Part shown: positions 9,451 through 40,219 of the stretch, piece by piece
Layout of the letters: each line of letters begins with the position of its first letter
Position numbering within the stretch: position 1 is the first letter of the stretch
Origin: Larkinella soli
GTDB lineage: Bacteria > Bacteroidota > Bacteroidia > Cytophagales > Spirosomataceae
Direction of reading: 5' to 3'
Assembly (NCBI RefSeq): GCF_003703975.1
Contig: NZ_QTJY01000009.1
Coordinates: forward strand, 186,001-250,000
Length of the DNA: 64,000 bases
Notes under the pieces: model-generated
Seen by the model: only the letters and a program-made list of their open reading frames with translations
Told to the model about the DNA's origin: nothing
The model's database searches: none
Translations under genes and position numbers: made by a program

Positions 9451-9552
9451 ACCACCCCCCGGCCCCCTCCTTGGTAAGGAGGGGGAGTACTCCGCCATTT
9501 CCAGGCACTGCGGAGCAAAGCCCCTCCTTACCAAGGAGGGGTTGGGGGTGGT
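9451..9552. repeat. Palindromic dispersed repeat, copy A (102 bp)
   Basis: Begins ACCACCCCCCGGCCCCCTCC and ends with the complementary GGGGTTGGGGGTGGT. Each half contains an inner hairpin (CCTCCTTGGTAAGGAGG). It starts at the base after the stop codon of the DUF167 gene. Related copies lie at 17560, 28828 and 34317. The structure looks like a small non-autonomous mobile repeat (MITE or REP-like); no transposase is present in the window. Confidence 0.85.
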
Positions 9553-17559: not shown

Positions 17560-17662
17560 ACCACCCCCCGGCCCCCTCCTTGGCAAGGAGGGGGAGTGCG
17601 CTGCCAGATTCAAACCCTGCGAAGCCACCCCCTCCTTAGTAAGGAGGGGGCCGGGGGGTGGT
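17560..17662. repeat. Palindromic dispersed repeat, copy B (103 bp)
   Basis: ACCACCCCCCGGCCCCCTCC at the left and the inverted GGAGGGGGCCGGGGGGTGGT at the right. Inner hairpins are CCTCCTTGGCAAGGAGG and CCTCCTTAGTAAGGAGG. It lies between the divergent murF and FG-GAP genes, 17 bases before the start of the latter. Confidence 0.85.
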
Positions 17663-28827: not shown

Positions 28828-28967
28828 ACCACCCCCCGGCCCCCTCCTTGGTAAGGAGGGGGAGTGCGCTGCCTAATCAGATCCCTTTTGGGGTACGAAC
28901 TTGAAAAAAGGAGAAGCCAGGCTTGCGGAGCTAAGCCCCTCCTTACCAAGGAGGGGTTGGGGGTGGT
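28828..28967. repeat. Palindromic dispersed repeat, copy C (140 bp)
   Basis: Same ends as copies A, B and D. It is preceded by a partial second left end (ACCACCCCCGGCCGG at 28813), which looks like a nested or duplicated terminus. The centre differs from the other copies. It lies between the dehydrogenase and the second GH43 gene. Confidence 0.85.
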
Positions 28968-31939: not shown

Positions 31940-32644
31940 ATGAATTACTCCATCCACACCATGTTTACCGGTTTCCATCCCATGAACCTGCATCTGCTGG
32001 AAATGCTGTTTCCGGGCTGGGTCATCACCAGCGCCGATTCCCGAAACGGCCACCGGATCATCGGAGGCAACGGCAATGAATTTTTCGGTCGGCCGGGTCA
32101 CGGCACGATCAGTGACCTGCCGGCGCTGATTCACCCCGACGATGTCGAAGCTTACCGCCGAAGCCTGCAGAAAATCGAAGCGTTTCTGAAAGAAACCGCC
32201 CCGGCCGACGTGAGCCGGTACCGGTTTGGTCTGCAATACCGGTTGCAGCGGGGCCGTGGGCGGTATTTTACCGCTCTGGAGGAGAAGCTGTTTTTCGTCA
32301 ACGAACAGGGCAGGACCGAGAATTTCTCCCTCTTCCGCGACGTCTCCACCGAGCGGCCCTTCACACGGGTGCAGCTCGACCTGTACAGGGTGCATTCCCT
32401 CGGCTACCGCCGGATCGGCTCCTATACGCCGGCCACCCCCGACCAGGGCTTTACGGCCCGGGAGGGTGAAATCCTGCAACTCATCAAAGACGGTCTCAGC
32501 AGCAAGGAGATCGCCGACCGGCTGTCGATCAGCATCAATACCGTCCGTAACCACCGGAGCAGCCTGTTCCGGAAAACACAGTCGCGCAATATGGTCGAAC
32601 TGCTCAACCACTCGCAGTCCGGGCTACCGGTCGGGGCCTTCTGA
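31940..32644 (+). CDS. PAS-like/LuxR-type DNA-binding regulator
   Basis: 234 residues. A PAS-like sensor segment is at about 20-150 (HRIIGGNGNEFFGRPGHGTISDLPALIHPDDVEAYRRSL, with beta strands YRFGLQYRLQ and KLFFVNEQGR). The LuxR helix-turn-helix at about 165-222 reads FTAREGEILQLIKDGLSSKEIADRLSISINTVRNHRSSLFRK. The PAS-LuxR layout without a receiver domain is common in Bacteroidota. The signal is unknown. Its 3' end overlaps the convergent egtD by 21 bases. Its upstream region carries three palindromic elements. Confidence 0.88.
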   Translation: MNYSIHTMFTGFHPMNLHLLEMLFPGWVITSADSRNGHRIIGGNGNEFFGRPGHGTISDLPALIHPDDVEAYRRSLQKIEAFLKETAPADVSRYRFGLQYRLQRGRGRYFTALEEKLFFVNEQGRTENFSLFRDVSTERPFTRVQLDLYRVHSLGYRRIGSYTPATPDQGFTAREGEILQLIKDGLSSKEIADRLSISINTVRNHRSSLFRKTQSRNMVELLNHSQSGLPVGAF

Positions 32645-33721
32645 ATCGTCGCCGGGCCGACGCTCGCCGGGCCGACGCTCGCCGGGCCGACGCTCGGCGT
32701 CGCGTTCGAACACCACGTCGACAAAGTATTCCCTGCAGTCGGTAAACCAGGCCGTGGGCGTAAACCCGGTGGCCTCGGCGAGCCGCCGGATTTCCGTCCG
32801 GTTGTATTTCCGTGAAATCTCCGTGTGGATGACCTCCCCATAGGCAAACGACACGGTCAGGCCGAGCCTCCCGATGCGGACGTCCTGCTTTTTCTCACTG
32901 ACCAGATAACTGCGGGCCTCTCCGGTTTCCGGGTTGTAGATTTCGTAGTGACTGAATGCCGACAGGTCGAATTCGCCCTCCAGCTCACGGTTGATGCGCC
33001 GGAGCAGGTTCAGGTTGAAGGCCCGCGTCAGGCCCTGCCGGTCGTTGTAGGCCGCCTGGATGACGGCGGGGTGTTTCCGGAGATCGATGCCCGTCAGCAC
33101 CAGATCACCGGGCCGCAGTTTGGCGTAAAGCCGTCGGTAGAAATCGATGGCTTCCTTCTCGGAAAAGTTACCGATGTTCGAACCCAGAAACAGGACCACC
33201 TTGCGGGCCTCGGAGCGGGAGGAGAGCGTCTCCAGCGCCCGGAAATAATCGTCGTGCAGCGGTTCGACGGCCAGATCCGGCCAGCGACCCCGCAGGTCCC
33301 GGGTGAGCTGGTCGAGGGCGTCGGCCGAAATGTCGATGGGAACGTAAGTGAACCGGGCCTGCCGCTGCCGGAAATGCTCCAGCAATACCTTGGTTTTCAG
33401 GCCGTCGCCCGCACCGAGTTCGATCAGCTCGAAGGCTTCGCCGGGGCGTTCGAACAGCCGGAGCATCTCCTCTTTCTGCTGGCTGATGATCTCATATTCG
33501 CTGCGGGTAAGGTAATATTCCGGCAGGTGCATGATTTCCTGAAAAATCCGGCTGCCTTCAGCATCGTAGAAGAACCGGGACGACAGCCGTTTGGGCGTTC
33601 GGGCCAGCCCGGTACGCACTTCGTCGGCTAAGGCCGAAAGGGACGGGTTTTCGGGGTCGTTGCCGTTGAAGGTATGCCGATCGTTTATTTCTTCACTAAA
33701 CGGATTCCCGTGAACTGCCAT
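32624..33721 (-). CDS. egtD: L-histidine N-alpha-methyltransferase (EgtD-type)
   Basis: Trimethylates histidine to hercynine with S-adenosylmethionine, the first step of ergothioneine synthesis. 365 residues. Family segments: SSRFFYDAEGSRIFQEIMHLPEYYLTR (48-73), SAM loop ELGAGDGLKTKVLL (about 101-114), LGSNIGNFSEKEA, the histidine-binding GIDLRKHPAVIQAAYND, and FSHYEIYNP. The C-terminal 20 or so residues are three copies of ERRPG encoded by a 15-bp tandem repeat, an addition beyond the normal end. The start overlaps the egtB stop region by 37 bases. Last gene of the five-gene operon. Confidence 0.93.
   Translation of the reverse strand: MAVHGNPFSEEINDRHTFNGNDPENPSLSALADEVRTGLARTPKRLSSRFFYDAEGSRIFQEIMHLPEYYLTRSEYEIISQQKEEMLRLFERPGEAFELIELGAGDGLKTKVLLEHFRQRQARFTYVPIDISADALDQLTRDLRGRWPDLAVEPLHDDYFRALETLSSRSEARKVVLFLGSNIGNFSEKEAIDFYRRLYAKLRPGDLVLTGIDLRKHPAVIQAAYNDRQGLTRAFNLNLLRRINRELEGEFDLSAFSHYEIYNPETGEARSYLVSEKKQDVRIGRLGLTVSFAYGEVIHTEISRKYNRTEIRRLAEATGFTPTAWFTDCREYFVDVVFERDAERRPGERRPGERRPGDDSEGPDR
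32650..32694. repeat. 15-bp tandem repeat, three exact copies, in the egtD 3' end
   Basis: The unit CGCCGGGCCGACGCT is repeated three times without change and encodes ERRPG on the minus strand. It starts a few bases after the stop codon of the convergent LuxR-type gene and extends the EgtD C-terminus; unit number could vary between strains. Confidence 0.9.
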
Positions 33722-34965
33722 CGTTTGTCAGGTTGGAAAAAGTTGCGGTAAGTCGGCCGGGAATGCCCGGCGGGCGTCGCCACCGAGCCGCCCCGCAGCA
33801 CCATCTGGTTGATCATGAACTTACCGTTGTATTCGCCGACGGCCCCTTCGGCGGTCTGAAAGCCGGGATAAGGGAGATAGGCCGAATTCGTCCACTCCCA
33901 AAGCCGGCCCCAGTCGAAACCGCCGGTGGTGGCGGCCGCTTCCCACTCGAACTCGGTGGGCAGCCGCCGGCCCCGCCGGCGGGCGAAGGCATCGGCCTCG
34001 TAGAAGCTGACGTGACAGACCGGCTCGTCGGGGTCGACCGGCTTAAGTCCGTCGAAGGTGTAGTGCCACCACTGCCCGTCGATCCGGTGCCAGTAGAGGG
34101 GTGCTTCGATGCGGTTTTCGTTGACCCAGGCCCAGCCGTCGGCCAGCCAGTACCGGAACTGCCGGTAGCCGCCCGATTCGACGAATTCGAGGTATTCGCC
34201 GTTGGTGACCAGTGACCGCTCCAGATCGAAAGCCTGCAGGTAAACCTTATGAACGCCCTTCTCGTTGTCGAAATGGAACCCGTCGCCCCGGTAGCCGATG
34301 GTGTAAATTCCCTCGGACCACCCCCCGGCCCCCTCCTTGCTGGGGAGAGGGTGATTTGCTCCCGGCCCCTGAAAGGGAGCCGATCCGGCGGAACCAAGCC
34401 CCCCAAAGGAGGCTGGGTGGGGATCACTCCCCCTCCTTAGCAAGGAGGGGGTTGGGGGGTGGTACCCCGGAAACAGCGGGTTATGTCCCAGAATGTATTT
34501 GATGTCGGTCAGCAGGAGTTCCTGGTGCTGCTGTTCGTGATTCAGGCCCAGTTCGACGAGAGAGTGGAGTTCGGGGGTCAGGTCGGCGGATTCCAGGAAG
34601 GCGTGCATCTGCTCGTCGACGTAGGCCCGGTACCGGTACACCTCCTCCACGGTGGGGCGAGTCAGATTGCCGCGGTCGGCCCGCAGCACCCGTTTGCCCA
34701 CGGCCTCGTAATAGCTGTTGAAGACGAAGCTGAAATCGTCGTGAAAGATGCGGTAGCCGGGCCGGTGCGGAACCAGTACGAAGGTTTCCCAGAACCAGGT
34801 CGTATGACCGAGGTGCCACTTCGGCGGGCTGACGTCGATGACCGGCTGAACGACGTAATCCTCCGTCGTCAGGGGCCGGCAGAGGGCTTCACTGTATTGA
34901 CGGACTTCCTGATACCGTTCACTCAGGCCGGCGGGGGTCGTGGCGGAAATCGGATCGGCGATCAT
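33685..34965 (-). CDS. egtB: Hercynine oxygenase-type sulfoxide synthase (EgtB), with in-frame repeat insertion
   Basis: Non-haem iron enzyme that joins a thiol (gamma-glutamylcysteine or cysteine) to hercynine using oxygen. 426 residues. The N-terminal DinB_2 domain (about 12-165) carries the iron ligands in WHLGH (His54 region) and HEQQHQE (His143, His147). The C-terminal FGE-sulfatase domain (about 225-426) has LPTEFEWEAAA, LWEWTNSAYLPYPGF and MVLRGGSVATP. Residues 168-217 are translated from a palindromic repeat (49 codons) lying in the linker between the domains. Without it, the protein has the usual length of about 377. It overlaps the zinc-finger gene by 4 bases upstream and egtD by 37 downstream. 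Confidence 0.93.
   Translation of the reverse strand: MIADPISATTPAGLSERYQEVRQYSEALCRPLTTEDYVVQPVIDVSPPKWHLGHTTWFWETFVLVPHRPGYRIFHDDFSFVFNSYYEAVGKRVLRADRGNLTRPTVEEVYRYRAYVDEQMHAFLESADLTPELHSLVELGLNHEQQHQELLLTDIKYILGHNPLFPGYHPPTPSLLRRGSDPHPASFGGLGSAGSAPFQGPGANHPLPSKEGAGGWSEGIYTIGYRGDGFHFDNEKGVHKVYLQAFDLERSLVTNGEYLEFVESGGYRQFRYWLADGWAWVNENRIEAPLYWHRIDGQWWHYTFDGLKPVDPDEPVCHVSFYEADAFARRRGRRLPTEFEWEAAATTGGFDWGRLWEWTNSAYLPYPGFQTAEGAVGEYNGKFMINQMVLRGGSVATPAGHSRPTYRNFFQPDKRWQFTGIRLVKK
34317..34463. repeat. Palindromic dispersed repeat, copy D (147 bp), inside egtB
   Basis: Ends ACCACCCCCCGGCCCCCTCC and CCCCCTCCTTAGCAAGGAGG...GGTGGT match copies A-C. The centre is different and contains no stop codon on the egtB strand. 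The length of 147 bases is exactly 49 codons, so egtB stays in frame. Confidence 0.9.
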
Positions 34966-35243
34966 ATCGTATACGGGGTAATCTGCTCATCCACAAAGCA
35001 CCAGAGCCAGAACTCGCCCGGCTCGGCCGACGCAATGACCGGGTGCCCGGTTTCGTGGAAGTGGCGCGTGGCGTGTTTCTCGGGCGACGAATCGCAGCAA
35101 TAGGTATGCCCGCAGGTCTGGCAGGTCCGCAGATGCACCCACGAACTGCCGTTCTTCACACATTCTTCGCAGACGGCGGGTTCACGGGGCAGAGTAACGT
35201 TCCCGATTTCGTTCAGGTGAGCACAGGTTCTTCTTTTCAGCAT
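34962..35243 (-). CDS. Small UBP-type zinc-finger protein
   Basis: 93 residues, almost entirely one ZnF-UBP domain. Candidate zinc ligands: Cys7, His9, Cys25, Cys28, Cys41, Cys44, Cys49, His56, His61, His63 and His67, in the order expected for a UBP finger (CxH, CxxC, CxxCGHxYCC, H-rich). The family's eukaryotic members bind the ubiquitin C-terminus; bacterial stand-alone versions have no established role. It begins 18 bases after the receiver-flavoprotein gene ends and its stop overlaps the egtB start (ATGA), so all are cotranslated. A zinc/redox adaptor is conceivable, but that is inference. Confidence 0.88.
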   Translation of the reverse strand: MLKRRTCAHLNEIGNVTLPREPAVCEECVKNGSSWVHLRTCQTCGHTYCCDSSPEKHATRHFHETGHPVIASAEPGEFWLWCFVDEQITPYTI

Positions 35244-35261
35244 AGGAGGTCGGAGCCGGGT

Positions 35262-36923
35262 TTAGGTTTCGGCTAAATATTTGTGAACGAAACTGACGGC
35301 CATGGCGCCCTCGCCCACGGCGGAGGCCACGCGGTTCATCGCACCCGCCCGCACGTCGCCGGCGGCAAAGATGCCAGGGCTGCACGTTTCCAGCAGGTAC
35401 GGCTCGCGGGTGAGCTTCCAGGCTCGTTTAAAATCGTCGTACTGCGTCAGGCTCCGACCGGTCTCGATAAAGCCCTTGTCGTTTTTGATGATGTTCATCT
35501 CGATCCAGTCCGTAAACGGCTTGGCTCCGATAAAGATGAACAGGGCGCCGGCCGACACCTTCCGCTCCTCGCCGGTGTTGAGGTCTTTCAGCACGATGCA
35601 TTCGAGGTGGTCGTGGCCCAGGGCCTCGATCACCTCCGTACAGGGAATCAGCCGGATGTTCGGCGTCTTTTCGATCTGGTCGATCAGGTACTGCGACATG
35701 GTGGCCGTCAGGTCGGGCCGCCGGATCACCACATGCACCTCAGAGGCCGTCCGCGAGAGGTACATGGCCGCCTGACCGGCCGAGTTGCCCCCGCCCACGA
35801 CATACACGGGCTGCCCCCGGAAAGCGAAAGCCTCGGTGGTGGCCGCCCCGTAGTAGACGCCGGCTCCCGTGAACTTGTCGAAGCTCTCGTTATCGAGTTT
35901 GTGGTAGGCGACGCCGGTGCTGAGCAGGATGCTGCGGGCCACCACCTCGGTGCCGTCGTTGAGCTGAATGTGCTTGTACTGGCCCTGCGATTTAATGGAA
36001 ACGACTTCCTGCGGAGCCAGAAACTCCACACCGAAGCGGGTGGCCTGGGTGATGGCCCGCCGGGCCAGCTCGGCCCCGCTGAGGCCATTCGGAAAGCCGA
36101 GGTAGTTTTCGATCCGGGAGCTGGTGCCGGCCTGTCCGCCCGGCGCCCGCTTGTCGATCAGGATGGTCCGGAGGCCCTCCGAACCGCCGTACACCGCAGC
36201 CGCCAGACCGGCCGGTCCCGCGCCGATGATGGCCAGGTCATACAGCGCCTGGGCCGGGCGGGGCTTCAGGCCGACGGATTCGCCCAGTTCGGCGAGGGTC
36301 GGCTGGGTCAGGTGCCGGCCGTCTTCGAGCACCACGGCCGGAAGTTCTTTCCGGTCGATGCCGTAGAGGTCGAGCAGACGCTGCGCTTCCCGGTTGCTCT
36401 CGATGTCGAGCCACTGATACGGAAAGAGGTTTCCGGCCAGGAAGTCCTTCAGTTCGTGAGTCCGGGGCGAAAACTGGTAACCGATCAGCCGCAGACCCTC
36501 GAAGGCCGGGCGGTGGTTCGACTGCCAGTCGCTGAGCAGTTCCTCCAGCACCGGGTACAGCTTTTCCTCGGGCGGGTCCCAGGGCTTGTTCAGGTAGTAA
36601 TCCAGCTGAACGTCGTTGATCGCCCGAATAGCGGCTTCGATGTCGGAATAGGCCGTCAGCAGGACGGTTTTCGCGGCCGGATAAATTTTCCGGGCCTGAA
36701 GCAGGAAGTCGACGCCGAGCATATCGGGCATCCGCTGGTCGGACAGGAACAGGGCGACGTCCTCATTTTTCTTCTTCAGCTCGACCAGCGTCGCCAGGGC
36801 TTCGTCGGCCGAGGTCGTCGCCAGAATCTTGTACTGCTTTCGGTACTGCTGCCGCAGGTCGCGCTGGATGGCCTGCAGCACCTGCTGGTCGTCGTCGACG
36901 GCAAGGATGATGGGTGGTTTCAT
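35262..36923 (-). CDS. Response-regulator receiver fused to a thioredoxin-reductase-like flavoprotein lacking redox cysteines
   Basis: 553 residues from the ATG at 36923. Receiver domain 1-130: acidic pocket Asp10-Asp12, phosphoacceptor Asp62 (LSDQRMPDM), Thr90 and Lys113. Residues 142-222 look like a glutaredoxin/thioredoxin fold (LRLIGYQFSPRTHELKDFLAG...LPAVVLEDG...PTLAELGE), with Ser-x-x-Thr where CxxC would be. Residues 228-553 are a TrxR-like FAD/NAD(P)H module: GAGPAG at 234-239, APGGQAGTSSRIENYLGF, GGGNSAGQAAMYL, IFAAGDVR. The CATC motif is GAAT (359-362). Thus no dithiol relay is possible by the usual route. The start overlaps the kinase stop (ATGA), a typical kinase/regulator pair. 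Confidence 0.9.
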   Translation of the reverse strand: MKPPIILAVDDDQQVLQAIQRDLRQQYRKQYKILATTSADEALATLVELKKKNEDVALFLSDQRMPDMLGVDFLLQARKIYPAAKTVLLTAYSDIEAAIRAINDVQLDYYLNKPWDPPEEKLYPVLEELLSDWQSNHRPAFEGLRLIGYQFSPRTHELKDFLAGNLFPYQWLDIESNREAQRLLDLYGIDRKELPAVVLEDGRHLTQPTLAELGESVGLKPRPAQALYDLAIIGAGPAGLAAAVYGGSEGLRTILIDKRAPGGQAGTSSRIENYLGFPNGLSGAELARRAITQATRFGVEFLAPQEVVSIKSQGQYKHIQLNDGTEVVARSILLSTGVAYHKLDNESFDKFTGAGVYYGAATTEAFAFRGQPVYVVGGGNSAGQAAMYLSRTASEVHVVIRRPDLTATMSQYLIDQIEKTPNIRLIPCTEVIEALGHDHLECIVLKDLNTGEERKVSAGALFIFIGAKPFTDWIEMNIIKNDKGFIETGRSLTQYDDFKRAWKLTREPYLLETCSPGIFAAGDVRAGAMNRVASAVGEGAMAVSFVHKYLAET

Positions 36924-38308
36924 TGGATGGGTAGGCAAACCTTAAACTCTGTTCTTCCCGGTTCCGAGTCGACGTAAATTTTTCCGTTATGGTGGCGGAT
37001 GATGCCCTGAACGATGTCCAGCCCCAGCCCGGTGCCTTTTCCGACCGGTTTGGTGGTAAAGAACGGGTCGAAGATCTGGTCGATGATCGTTTTGGGGATG
37101 CCCGCACCGTTGTCGGTGAAACGGGTCAGCACGAACTCATGATCGACCTCGGCCGTGATCTTCAGCCGGCCGCCGTCGCTCATGGCGTCGACGGCATTGT
37201 CGATAAGGTTCGTCCAGACCTGATTCAGTTCGCTCGGATAGGCTTCCACCTGCGGCAGACCCTCCGGCATGTCGATCTCGACCTCGATGTGTTTATCCTT
37301 CAGTTTATGTTTCAGTAACCGCAGCGTGCTGTCGATGCCGTCCCGCAGCCGGATGCATTCGCGCCCGGAGCCCCGGTCCATGTGCGTATACGCCTTGATG
37401 GCCTCCACCAGCGAGGCAATGCGTTTGGATGCGCTTTCGATATCGATAACCAGCTTTTCGGTCACTAAGTTATTGACCATCCAGTTTAAGACGGCCGGAA
37501 TAGGTTTCGGTCCGACCTGGCCCAGAATCATATCCAGATCGTCGGGCGTAAAGCGGAAGTCGACCAGCGCTTCGGTCAGGTCCGAGCCATTGGAAACCCC
37601 GTTGTCGTCGAGCCAGTCCATCAGGTCGTCTTCGAGATTGCTGCGCTCCATCAGCGAGAGCGGGGCGAGCGTCGTGTGTTCCTTCATCTTCCGGAACAGC
37701 AGTTCACTCATGGTGTCCACCTGCTCGTTTTGTAACTGGATGGCCATCACCGCCTTGAACTGTTCGGGCGTCGCCTGGAGGTGCGATTTCAGCGTGGTGG
37801 CGCTGCGGACCACCGCCGACACCGGGTTGTTCAGCTCGTGGGCCAGCCCGGCCGACATTCGTCCCAGCGACATCATCTTCTCGTTCTGCTGCATCTGCCG
37901 GGTCGATTCCCGCACCCGCGACGTCAGCTGGTGAACGAGCGTCTCGGTCAGTTCGTACTTCGAACGGATCATTTCCCGGAAATAATCGCGGTGCAGCGAC
38001 AGGAGGGTGGTGGGGTCCATCGTTTTCCAGTAACTTGTCGACTCTTTCATCCGCGAGAACGGCAGCACCCCCGCCAGGGAGCCTTCCTCCCAGGTGACCA
38101 GCTCCTGCTGCTGCCCCTGCTGGATCAGGTAAACCTGCAGGCGGCCGGCCATTACGATGAGAAAATGATCGGTTGCGTCGCCCGGACGGACCAGAATCGT
38201 TTCGGCGGGATAATCGCGGCATTCCGAATGGTCGACCAGCCACTGGAGCTGGTCTTCAGGCACGTTCCTGAACGTGGGGTTCTGTTGCAGGGAAAGCAGG
38301 CAGTTCAT
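36920..38308 (-). CDS. Histidine kinase with N-terminal cyclic-nucleotide-binding-type domain
   Basis: 462 residues, no membrane segment, so cytoplasmic. A CRP-like cNMP-binding domain is at about 1-125 ([36 protein letters not shown]). The canonical cNMP pocket motif RxA is not evident, so the ligand may differ. Dimerisation helix with phospho-His157 in [15 protein letters not shown]. HATPase C-terminal half: [39 protein letters not shown]. Start ATG 38308; the 23-residue upstream extension would run into the divergent gene. Its partner is surely the receiver-flavoprotein next to it. First gene of the five-gene operon. Confidence 0.92.
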
Positions 38309-38359: not shown

Positions 38360-40219
38360 ATGTATTCCTCCATGCAAACAACGAGTCTTCTGTTTTTCGT
38401 TTCACTGTGGCTGATTTCAGCTCTGAAGGCCCAGCCGGTCCGTTTCGCGTTCGTCACCGACACCCACATCGGCGCCCCGGTCACCGCCGTCGAGGACCTC
38501 CGGCGAACCGTCTCCGACCTCAACGCCCTGACCGACATCGACTTCGTGGTCTTCACCGGCGACGTCACCGATTTCGGCTCCGACGAGGAGCTGCGGACGG
38601 CCAAAGGCGTGCTCGACGGGCTGAACAAAAAATGGTACATCTTTCCGGGAAATCACGATACCAAGTGGTCGGAAAACGGCTGCAACAGCTTCCGGAAGGT
38701 GTTCGGAGCCGAGCGGTTTTCGTTCACCTTCGGCAACTACCGGTTCATCGGCTGCGGCAGCGGCCCCAACATGCGGATGTCGCCGGGGCTGGTGGCGCGG
38801 GAGGACGTGCTCTGGCTCCGGAGCGAGGTCGAAAAGCTCAAAGGCTCCGACCAGCCGGTTATATTCATGAACCACTATCCGCTCGACGAGTCGCTGGCAA
38901 ACTGGTACCTGCTCATCGACGAAATCAAGAAAACCAACGTCCAGGCCGCCCTCTGCGGTCACGGCCACGCCAACCGGGCGCTGGATTTCGAAGGCATACC
39001 GGGAACGATGGGCCGCTCGAACCTGCGGGCTAAAGACGCCGTCGGCGGTTATAACCTCGTCACGATGCGGAACGATACCATGACCTTCGCCGAGCGGACG
39101 CCGGGCCGGCAAACCGGCCCCGTCTGGCGAACCGTTCTCCTGAAAAACCATCACTTCGGCCAGGAAACCGCCCGGAGCTATCCCCGCCCTTCCTATGACA
39201 TGAACCGGCAGTATCCCGGCGTGGAGGTCGTCTGGGCGAAACAGGACAGCAGCGACGTGGGCGCGGGTCTGGTCGAGAGCGACGGTTTCTGCATCTATCC
39301 CAACACCAACGGGCAGATCGTGGCCCTCGCGACGGCCGACGGGCAGGTACGCTGGCGGTTTTCGACGGGCGGAAAAGTCTATTCGACCCCGGCCGTGCGG
39401 AAAAACCGGGTCGTGGTGGCTTCTACCGACGGCACCATCTACTGCCTCGACAAGCGCAGCGGGCGGCTGCTCTGGAAGCAGGAGACCGGGCGGCCCATCG
39501 TGGCCTCTCCGCTCATCGACGGAAACCGGGTGTATATCGGCAGTTCGGAAGGGAAGTTCCGGGCGCTCTCGCTGACCGACGGTCGGGTTCGCTGGACGTT
39601 CGGCGGGGTGAAGGGCTTCGTGGAATCGGTGCCGGTGACCGACCGGCGGAAGGTCTATTTCGGATCGTGGGGATCGAACCTGTACGCGCTCGACAAAAAA
39701 ACCGGCGATACGGCCTGGACCTGGACCAACGGCAAATCCCGCAACTTCTCACCGGCCGCCTGCGTGCCCGTTCTGTCCGGTAACCGCATCTTCATCCAGA
39801 CCCCCGACCGCACCGTGACGGCCATCGATGCCGGAACCGGCCGTGAATTCTGGAAAACCAGCCGCCATAAAGGCTTCGAGTCGATGGGCGTTTCGGCAGA
39901 CCGTTCGCTGATTTACGTCAAGTGCATGCAGGACTCGCTCTGGGCCATCCCGACGGCTTCGGCCGACGGCGAGGGGGCGTGGTACGTCAACTGCGGGTTC
40001 GGCTACGAGATCAGCCCCGGCCCGGTGACCGAACAGGACGACCGGATCTATATCCCGACCGACGAGGGCGTGCTCTACGTCGTCGACCGCCGGACCCGCC
40101 GGACGGCCTGGTCGCACAAGCTCTCGAACGCGATGGTCAACCGGGTCTGGCCGCTGGGCAACGGCCGGGTTCTGGCCGCCACCATGGACGGAAAAATAGC
40201 CCTGATAAAAGGTATTTAA
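38360..40219 (+). CDS. Metallophosphoesterase fused to a PQQ-type beta-propeller, exported
   Basis: 619 residues. Signal peptide to about residue 24 (start ATG 38360 or 38372). The calcineurin-like phosphoesterase domain at 27-285 has all metal motifs: DTH (34-36), GD (67-68), GNHD (97-100), NH (171-172) and GHGH (200-203). It is followed from about 290 to 619 by an eight-bladed PQQ/BamB-like propeller with repeats such as GxVRWRFSTGGKVYSTPAV and GRLLWKQETGRPIVASPLI. This is a periplasmic or surface phosphodiesterase with a binding scaffold; substrate unknown. It is divergent from the histidine kinase, with only 51 bases between start codons. Confidence 0.9.
   Translation: MYSSMQTTSLLFFVSLWLISALKAQPVRFAFVTDTHIGAPVTAVEDLRRTVSDLNALTDIDFVVFTGDVTDFGSDEELRTAKGVLDGLNKKWYIFPGNHDTKWSENGCNSFRKVFGAERFSFTFGNYRFIGCGSGPNMRMSPGLVAREDVLWLRSEVEKLKGSDQPVIFMNHYPLDESLANWYLLIDEIKKTNVQAALCGHGHANRALDFEGIPGTMGRSNLRAKDAVGGYNLVTMRNDTMTFAERTPGRQTGPVWRTVLLKNHHFGQETARSYPRPSYDMNRQYPGVEVVWAKQDSSDVGAGLVESDGFCIYPNTNGQIVALATADGQVRWRFSTGGKVYSTPAVRKNRVVVASTDGTIYCLDKRSGRLLWKQETGRPIVASPLIDGNRVYIGSSEGKFRALSLTDGRVRWTFGGVKGFVESVPVTDRRKVYFGSWGSNLYALDKKTGDTAWTWTNGKSRNFSPAACVPVLSGNRIFIQTPDRTVTAIDAGTGREFWKTSRHKGFESMGVSADRSLIYVKCMQDSLWAIPTASADGEGAWYVNCGFGYEISPGPVTEQDDRIYIPTDEGVLYVVDRRTRRTAWSHKLSNAMVNRVWPLGNGRVLAATMDGKIALIKGI

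Follow-up and report, generated by a model that had tools for sequence, protein, structure and literature searches.

A run of five genes in Larkinella soli joins a predicted sensor kinase, a receiver-flavoprotein and a free-standing UBP-type zinc finger to the ergothioneine genes egtB and egtD. The genes occupy positions 32624..38308, all on the minus strand, of the window, by which the whole 64,000-nucleotide stretch analyzed is meant (contig NZ_QTJY01000009.1, positions 186,001 to 250,000). As the best explanation, held tentatively and with somewhat less than even confidence, we propose that the first three genes encode a redox-stress module, in which an NAD(P)H-dependent flavoprotein is switched by phosphorylation and acts together with the UBP finger, and that this module is co-expressed with ergothioneine synthesis. 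The module is probably tied either to ergothioneine or to the stress against which ergothioneine protects. In the window's family the ergothioneine link is real; it is not obligatory.

Domains were assigned using Pfam and NCBIfam models with curated cut-offs. In order of transcription, the first gene (36920..38308) encodes a 462-aa sensor histidine kinase with a cNMP-like domain (cNMP_binding, HisKA and HATPase_c in Pfam; H-box, N, G1 and G2 motifs). Its start was placed at the ATG at 38308; a longer mechanical open reading frame opens with TTG at 38377. Following a 4-base overlap, the second gene (35262..36923) encodes a 553-aa protein (Response_reg and Pyr_redox_2) built from a receiver, a Cys-less glutaredoxin-like segment and a thioredoxin reductase (TrxR)-like NAD(P)H-flavin adenine dinucleotide (FAD) flavoprotein that is Cys-less at its redox site. 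An 18-base gap (35244-35261) precedes the 93-aa UBP finger (34962..35243; zf-UBP, 46 bits against a cut-off of 22.7), which overlaps egtB (33685..34965) by 4 bases, and egtB in turn overlaps egtD (32624..33721) by 37 bases. These coordinates agree exactly with the five-gene, one-strand run described in an earlier reading of the stretch (the sequence-only reading), overlaps and gap included. The genome itself contained a single zf-UBP match and a single egtD match.

Co-occurrence was scored in 121 genomes of the window's family and 247 genomes of its phylum, with the window counted in both samples; the statistics ignore kinship, and egtD was counted at E 1e-30 unless stated. In the family sample, the flavoprotein was found in 45 genomes, UBP in 39 and egtD in 53 (38 over the curated cut-off). 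The egtD gene was present in 42 of the 45 flavoprotein genomes versus 11 of the 76 without flavoprotein (Fisher 1e-18 by genome), while counting by genus gave 14/14 flavoprotein genera versus 21/36 overall (p 3e-5). Similarly, egtD was found in 35 of the 39 UBP genomes. The phylum sample contained egtD in 77 genomes (64 over the cut-off), UBP over its cut-off in 27 and both in 26 (p 5e-14). When 50 genomes were drawn from 64 UBP loci with no egtBD in view, 43 carried egtD somewhere (27 over the cut-off).

Adjacency was determined in the same samples. Flavoprotein and egtD lay at most 10 kb apart in 14 of the 42 family genomes having both, covering five genera (g126 eight, g147 two, g152 two, g150 one and the window one), versus a chance expectation of ~0.2 (20-kb target, genomes of at least 5 Mb; the genomes are related and not independent). 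Within its genus the window was the sole genome of nine to show this adjacency, six of the nine having egtD. Gene order was read at all 14 adjacent loci. At L194-L196 the order was kinase-flavoprotein-egtB-egtD with UBP absent from the locus, so that kinase-flavoprotein is the part adjoining egtBD there; 8 bases separated the flavoprotein match from the egtB match in L194. Other orders, partly from the UBP loci surveyed below, were egtB-egtD-UBP-kinase-flavoprotein (L012, L040, L060), egtB-egtD-kinase-flavoprotein-UBP (L030) and a convergent arrangement (L020, L054, L148, L149), and L027 carried UBP-egtB-egtD with kinase and flavoprotein not in view. A chance pair of neighbors was rejected as the sole explanation on the basis of family adjacency (14/42) and co-occurrence (42/45). 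The module-egtBD link put forward in the sequence-only reading was thus seen beyond the window genome. As side observations, ~5-6 kb of other genes stood between flavoprotein and UBP-egtB-egtD in two g126 loci (L153, 4875-10012; L154, 3514-9658); in L153 these include, by eye, a kinase/regulator pair. One family of the phylum sample has four genomes (G065, G139, G143, G191) in which a single contig carries UBP and egtD ~115-150 kb apart, a looser arrangement than adjacency yet at a similar distance in each.

UBP loci were surveyed for the best 80 of 519 relatives, looking at most 8 kb to either side, with several flanks truncated by contig ends; some genomes were identical to those of the sample loci. 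A full receiver-flavoprotein was present at 44 of these 80 loci and a shorter or partial form at 3, the kinase at 42, and egtB plus egtD at 16. For 30 genomes lacking the full flavoprotein at the UBP locus (24 of the 34 such genomes of the best-80 set, plus 6 others), a match at E 1e-60 was found elsewhere in 22. In Pseudomonadota, a TrxR-like flavoprotein stood beside UBP in 10/10 loci, including the centre, L173, by a weak partial match only. The same held for 3/3 loci, centre genome included, in a Verrucomicrobiota sample poor in UBP (3/194). In the phylum sample, kinase or flavoprotein was ~1.5 kb or nearer in 19 of 29 UBP loci, the window excluded, two of the 29 being below the family cut-off. 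At L059 a cNMP domain was fused to the flavoprotein. UBP and the Cys-less flavoprotein form a wider module, whose driver is either the kinase with its receiver or a cNMP domain fused to the flavoprotein. In L174, L175, L176 and L177, UBP formed the C-terminal domain of a Na_H_Exchanger/TrkA_N Kef-like antiporter (frames of ~700 aa), and three of these four fusions adjoined the same kinase and receiver-flavoprotein. The two fusions scored remained below the KefB/KefC equivalog cut-offs (KefC 311 and 292 vs 752).

The AlphaFold model of the UBP finger (mean predicted local distance difference test, pLDDT, 75.0) had RPA1320 (2IDA) as best match (107 bits; Foldseek identity 56%) and HDAC6 as next. 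The fold and the conserved Cys/His of the predicted zinc finger were present, and 27 positions were invariant among 38 aligned proteins. In the family profile, GRY of HDAC6 aligned to DSS and no conserved Arg was found at that place. HDAC6 R1155 is the Arg contacting the ubiquitin tail, so this residue is missing from the UBP family.

Flavoproteins were aligned in 57 rows, the window included, with identity >38% and length >380, L078 and L080 dropping out. The C-terminal part had the TrxR fold (AlphaFold model, mean pLDDT 83.2) with FAD and NAD(P)H motifs GxGxxG, GGGNSAG and GD, and a YYGAA...EA stretch was retained. At its CxxC site, where thioredoxin reductase CAIC aligned to GAAT, no Cys occurred in 57/57 rows. 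CxxC was also absent in 23/23 rows of a second set of cNMP-fused and short forms, in which L059 and L163 come from the same genome and whose families partly overlap the first set. Between the receiver and the TrxR part lies a segment that resembles glutaredoxin on visual inspection and in its predicted secondary structure. No Pfam model matched this segment, and it lacked CxxC in 57/57 rows, one Cys occurring in 2 rows. The only cysteines of the window protein were 428, 442 and 514. Scored against the TIGR01292 thioredoxin-reductase equivalog, the protein reached 234.6 with a cut-off of 343.45, and an ordinary thioredoxin reductase was rejected on both the missing CxxC and this score.

The phospho-His box HELNNP was present in 52/52 kinase rows, and receiver residues D11, D12, D62, T90 and K113 in 56/57 rows, the exception being the cNMP fusion L059. 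A G-x-LP-x-SR stretch in the cNMP-like domain of the kinase was largely conserved. Because kinase and receiver residues are both conserved, a phosphorelay from kinase to receiver-flavoprotein, as the sequence-only reading had supposed, is plausible.

Both ergothioneine enzymes scored above their curated equivalog cut-offs, which bears out the identities first given to them: EgtB, a sulfoxide synthase, with TIGR03440 (529.7 vs 360) and EgtD, an L-histidine N-alpha-methyltransferase, with TIGR03438 (321.5 vs 290.9). EgtB gave 423 bits with Chloracidobacterium-type structures (8QF6, 6QKI, 6O6L) versus 112.7 with mycobacterial 4X8B, and Tyr 85-86 in its SYYEAVG motif aligned to Tyr93-Tyr94 of 8QF6. 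This Tyr pair is named for the Chloracidobacterium enzyme (CthEgtB), with cysteine as preferred substrate, in a review (PMC10903977). By similarity and by the Tyr pair, the window EgtB is assigned to the cysteine-using (Cth) type, and ergothioneine is the likely product of EgtB and EgtD. EgtA and EgtC serve the gamma-glutamylcysteine route. With an EgtB of the cysteine-using type they are not needed and their absence is expected, which counters the earlier suggestion that a window without EgtA and EgtC faced a sulfur donor problem or made another product. A different product inferred from the missing EgtA and EgtC was accordingly rejected. Selenoneine synthesis was likewise rejected, the SenA score (355.4) lying below its cut-off of 420.

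The proposed module would work as follows. EgtD would make hercynine and the Cth-type EgtB would add cysteine sulfur, the final lyase step being supplied from elsewhere. With its cNMP-like domain the kinase would detect a stress signal in the cytosol, and it would phosphorylate Asp62 of the flavoprotein. Phosphorylation would then switch electron transfer from NAD(P)H via FAD to a non-dithiol acceptor, candidates being an electrophile such as a quinone, an oxidized thione or a partner protein. The UBP finger may act as a docking adaptor bringing the flavoprotein to its target, because UBP is fused to Kef-like antiporter tails beside the same kinase and flavoprotein. Ergothioneine synthesis would be co-expressed since it answers the same oxidative or electrophile stress.

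Several results weigh against this proposal. Shared ancestry and an aerobic lifestyle both confound the co-occurrence counts. Among the best-80 loci with a full flavoprotein, egtBD was in view in 15/44 and not in view in 29/44 (8-kb flanks), and seven of seven Larkinella loci in that set carried the trio with egtBD not in view. Three of the eight other genomes of the genus kept flavoprotein and UBP with egtD absent. Of the 26 phylum-sample genomes with both UBP and egtD, the window alone had them at most 10 kb apart (1/26). Among 299 Pseudomonadota genomes, UBP was found in 10, egtD in 67 and both in 4 (p 0.16); lacking a significant association there, the UBP-egtD link is not general. No flavoprotein was in view at 33/80 best UBP loci, and 8 of the 30 genomes mentioned above had no match at E 1e-60. 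Finally, the activity reported for ATII-TrxR suggests, by analogy, that CxxC-less members may still act on disulfides. Many of these points favor a different, quite possible account, in which kinase, flavoprotein and UBP serve as a general redox/electrophile system whose job is unrelated to ergothioneine, and egtBD is a frequent neighbor through slow drift of gene order among the stress genes of aerobes: the 29/44 loci, the three genomes without egtD, the Pseudomonadota UBP-flavoprotein pairs and the single close UBP-egtD pair of the phylum sample all fit it. It accounts less well for adjacency in 14/42 family genomes over five genera and in several orders (L194; L012, L040, L060), and for the 42/45 co-occurrence. 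On the accidental link that the sequence-only reading had considered, the neighborhood check thus speaks in two directions, the 29/44 and 1/26 counts pointing to accident, and the family link, far above chance, pointing away from it.

More specialized functions of the flavoprotein were also weighed. A dedicated, kinase-gated reductase recycling oxidized ergothioneine is unlikely. It would suit L194-L196, where egtB-egtD directly follow kinase-flavoprotein without UBP, as well as the intact FAD and NAD(P)H motifs and the near-complete egtD co-occurrence in the family; the redox CxxC is nevertheless absent, the protein persists in the three genomes of the genus without egtD, the same protein type adjoins Kef-like antiporters, and Pseudomonadota that lack egtD still have TrxR-like relatives. 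More improbable still is a non-catalytic sensor scaffold that reads the NAD(P)H/FAD state and passes it on through UBP. Loss of CxxC with retention of the cofactor motifs and the YYGAA...EA stretch would be in keeping with such a scaffold, whereas receiver domains are more commonly found on output than on input proteins. The activity reported for ATII-TrxR in the passages used (PMC6544261) also argues against it. From residue patterns a dedicated ergothioneine-responsive switch might be imagined, its UBP pocket binding a trimethylammonium betaine (hercynine or ergothioneine) instead of a protein tail and its kinase-gated, Cys-less flavoprotein directly reducing oxidized ergothioneine from FADH2, which we regard as a long shot. 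In the alignment the pocket keeps its aromatic residues and an almost invariant Asp51, and the ubiquitin-gripping Arg is replaced. If true, a betaine-binding UBP with its flavoprotein would, to our knowledge, be the first such receptor/reductase system in bacteria.

Trees were compared for the two halves of the locus. In the kinase-flavoprotein tree, the window was sister to other Larkinella and then to g147 (starred supports). The 24-row egtB-egtD tree placed window and g147 outside a starred group joining Spirosoma, g139, g130 and other Larkinella, and it left open the fork that carries the window. Given this discordance, the joint locus is probably old; it was probably kept in the window, g147 and many Spirosoma, with egtBD lost or replaced in other Larkinella. 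In G345 (L145), from the window's genus, the egtB-egtD pair is highly divergent (58% and 45% identity) and sits on a long tree branch, which suggests replacement.

Both ergothioneine genes of the window contain repeats. A paired palindromic repeat lies in frame within egtB (34308..34472), where it separates the DinB domain from the FGE domain by ~30 additional residues without counterpart in the relatives shown. The same paired repeat occurs elsewhere in the window at 9464-9541, 17576-17649 and 28841-28956, and its core 18-mer had 73 genome matches at no more than 2 mismatches, many of them paired ~56-100 bp apart, versus 0 for the reversed control. The egtB insert is an in-frame copy of a dispersed, REPIN-like palindromic repeat. 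The C-terminal tail of EgtD is encoded by a 15-bp tandem repeat (32649-32696; 3.2 exact copies) that is absent in seven relatives shown. Outside the operon, a metallophosphatase/beta-propeller gene (38360-40219, plus strand) is divergent from the kinase, and a gene of similar size, matched by size alone, was found upstream of the kinase at six Larkinella loci.

No paper on the trio, on UBP-antiporter fusions or on Bacteroidetes egt clusters was found among titles and abstract openings of the openly licensed literature. In our judgment, little is understood of how bacteria sense a need for ergothioneine and recycle it. The kinase, the flavoenzyme under receiver control and the prokaryotic UBP finger that travel with egtBD provide concrete genes for such study. 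They also provide an initial functional context for two orphan groups: Cys-less TrxR-like flavoproteins, which homology would call thioredoxin reductases, and bacterial UBP fingers, which among solved structures come nearest to a structural-genomics entry with no function assigned.

Compared with known systems, the window pathway resembles that of Chloracidobacterium-type EgtB (6QKI, 6O6L, 8QF6) in EgtB score, Tyr pair and EgtD equivalog, and differs in the repeat insert of EgtB and in the joining of its genes to a signaling flavoprotein module. RPA1320 (2IDA) is likewise a bacterial free-standing UBP finger, being a structural-genomics entry named hypothetical protein. Potassium efflux by Kef has a flavoprotein partner. 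It has a parallel here in the three loci in which a Kef-like antiporter accompanies kinase and flavoprotein; the UBP tail and scores below the KefB/KefC cut-offs of the two antiporters scored set these apart, and the window operon has no antiporter. With low-molecular-weight TrxB the flavoprotein shares fold and FAD/NAD(P)H motifs, but it lacks CxxC, stays below the equivalog cut-off and carries receiver and glutaredoxin-like segments in front. The metagenomic ATII-TrxR, likened by architecture alone and not by homology, has a cNMP domain before a TrxR-like flavoprotein, as found beside UBP in L059. Reduction of DTNB (5,5′-dithiobis-(2-nitrobenzoic acid)) and thioredoxin is reported for it, cysteines 206/223 and 376/467 being proposed as redox centres; its sensor is fused, unlike the separate kinase and receiver here, and the passages of that report used here contain no UBP or egt link (PMC6544261). 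A TrxB-type response regulator, with a pyridine nucleotide-disulphide oxidoreductase as output like the receiver-flavoprotein described here, is listed in a cyanobacterial census, whose row for it assigns no function (PMC9953108).

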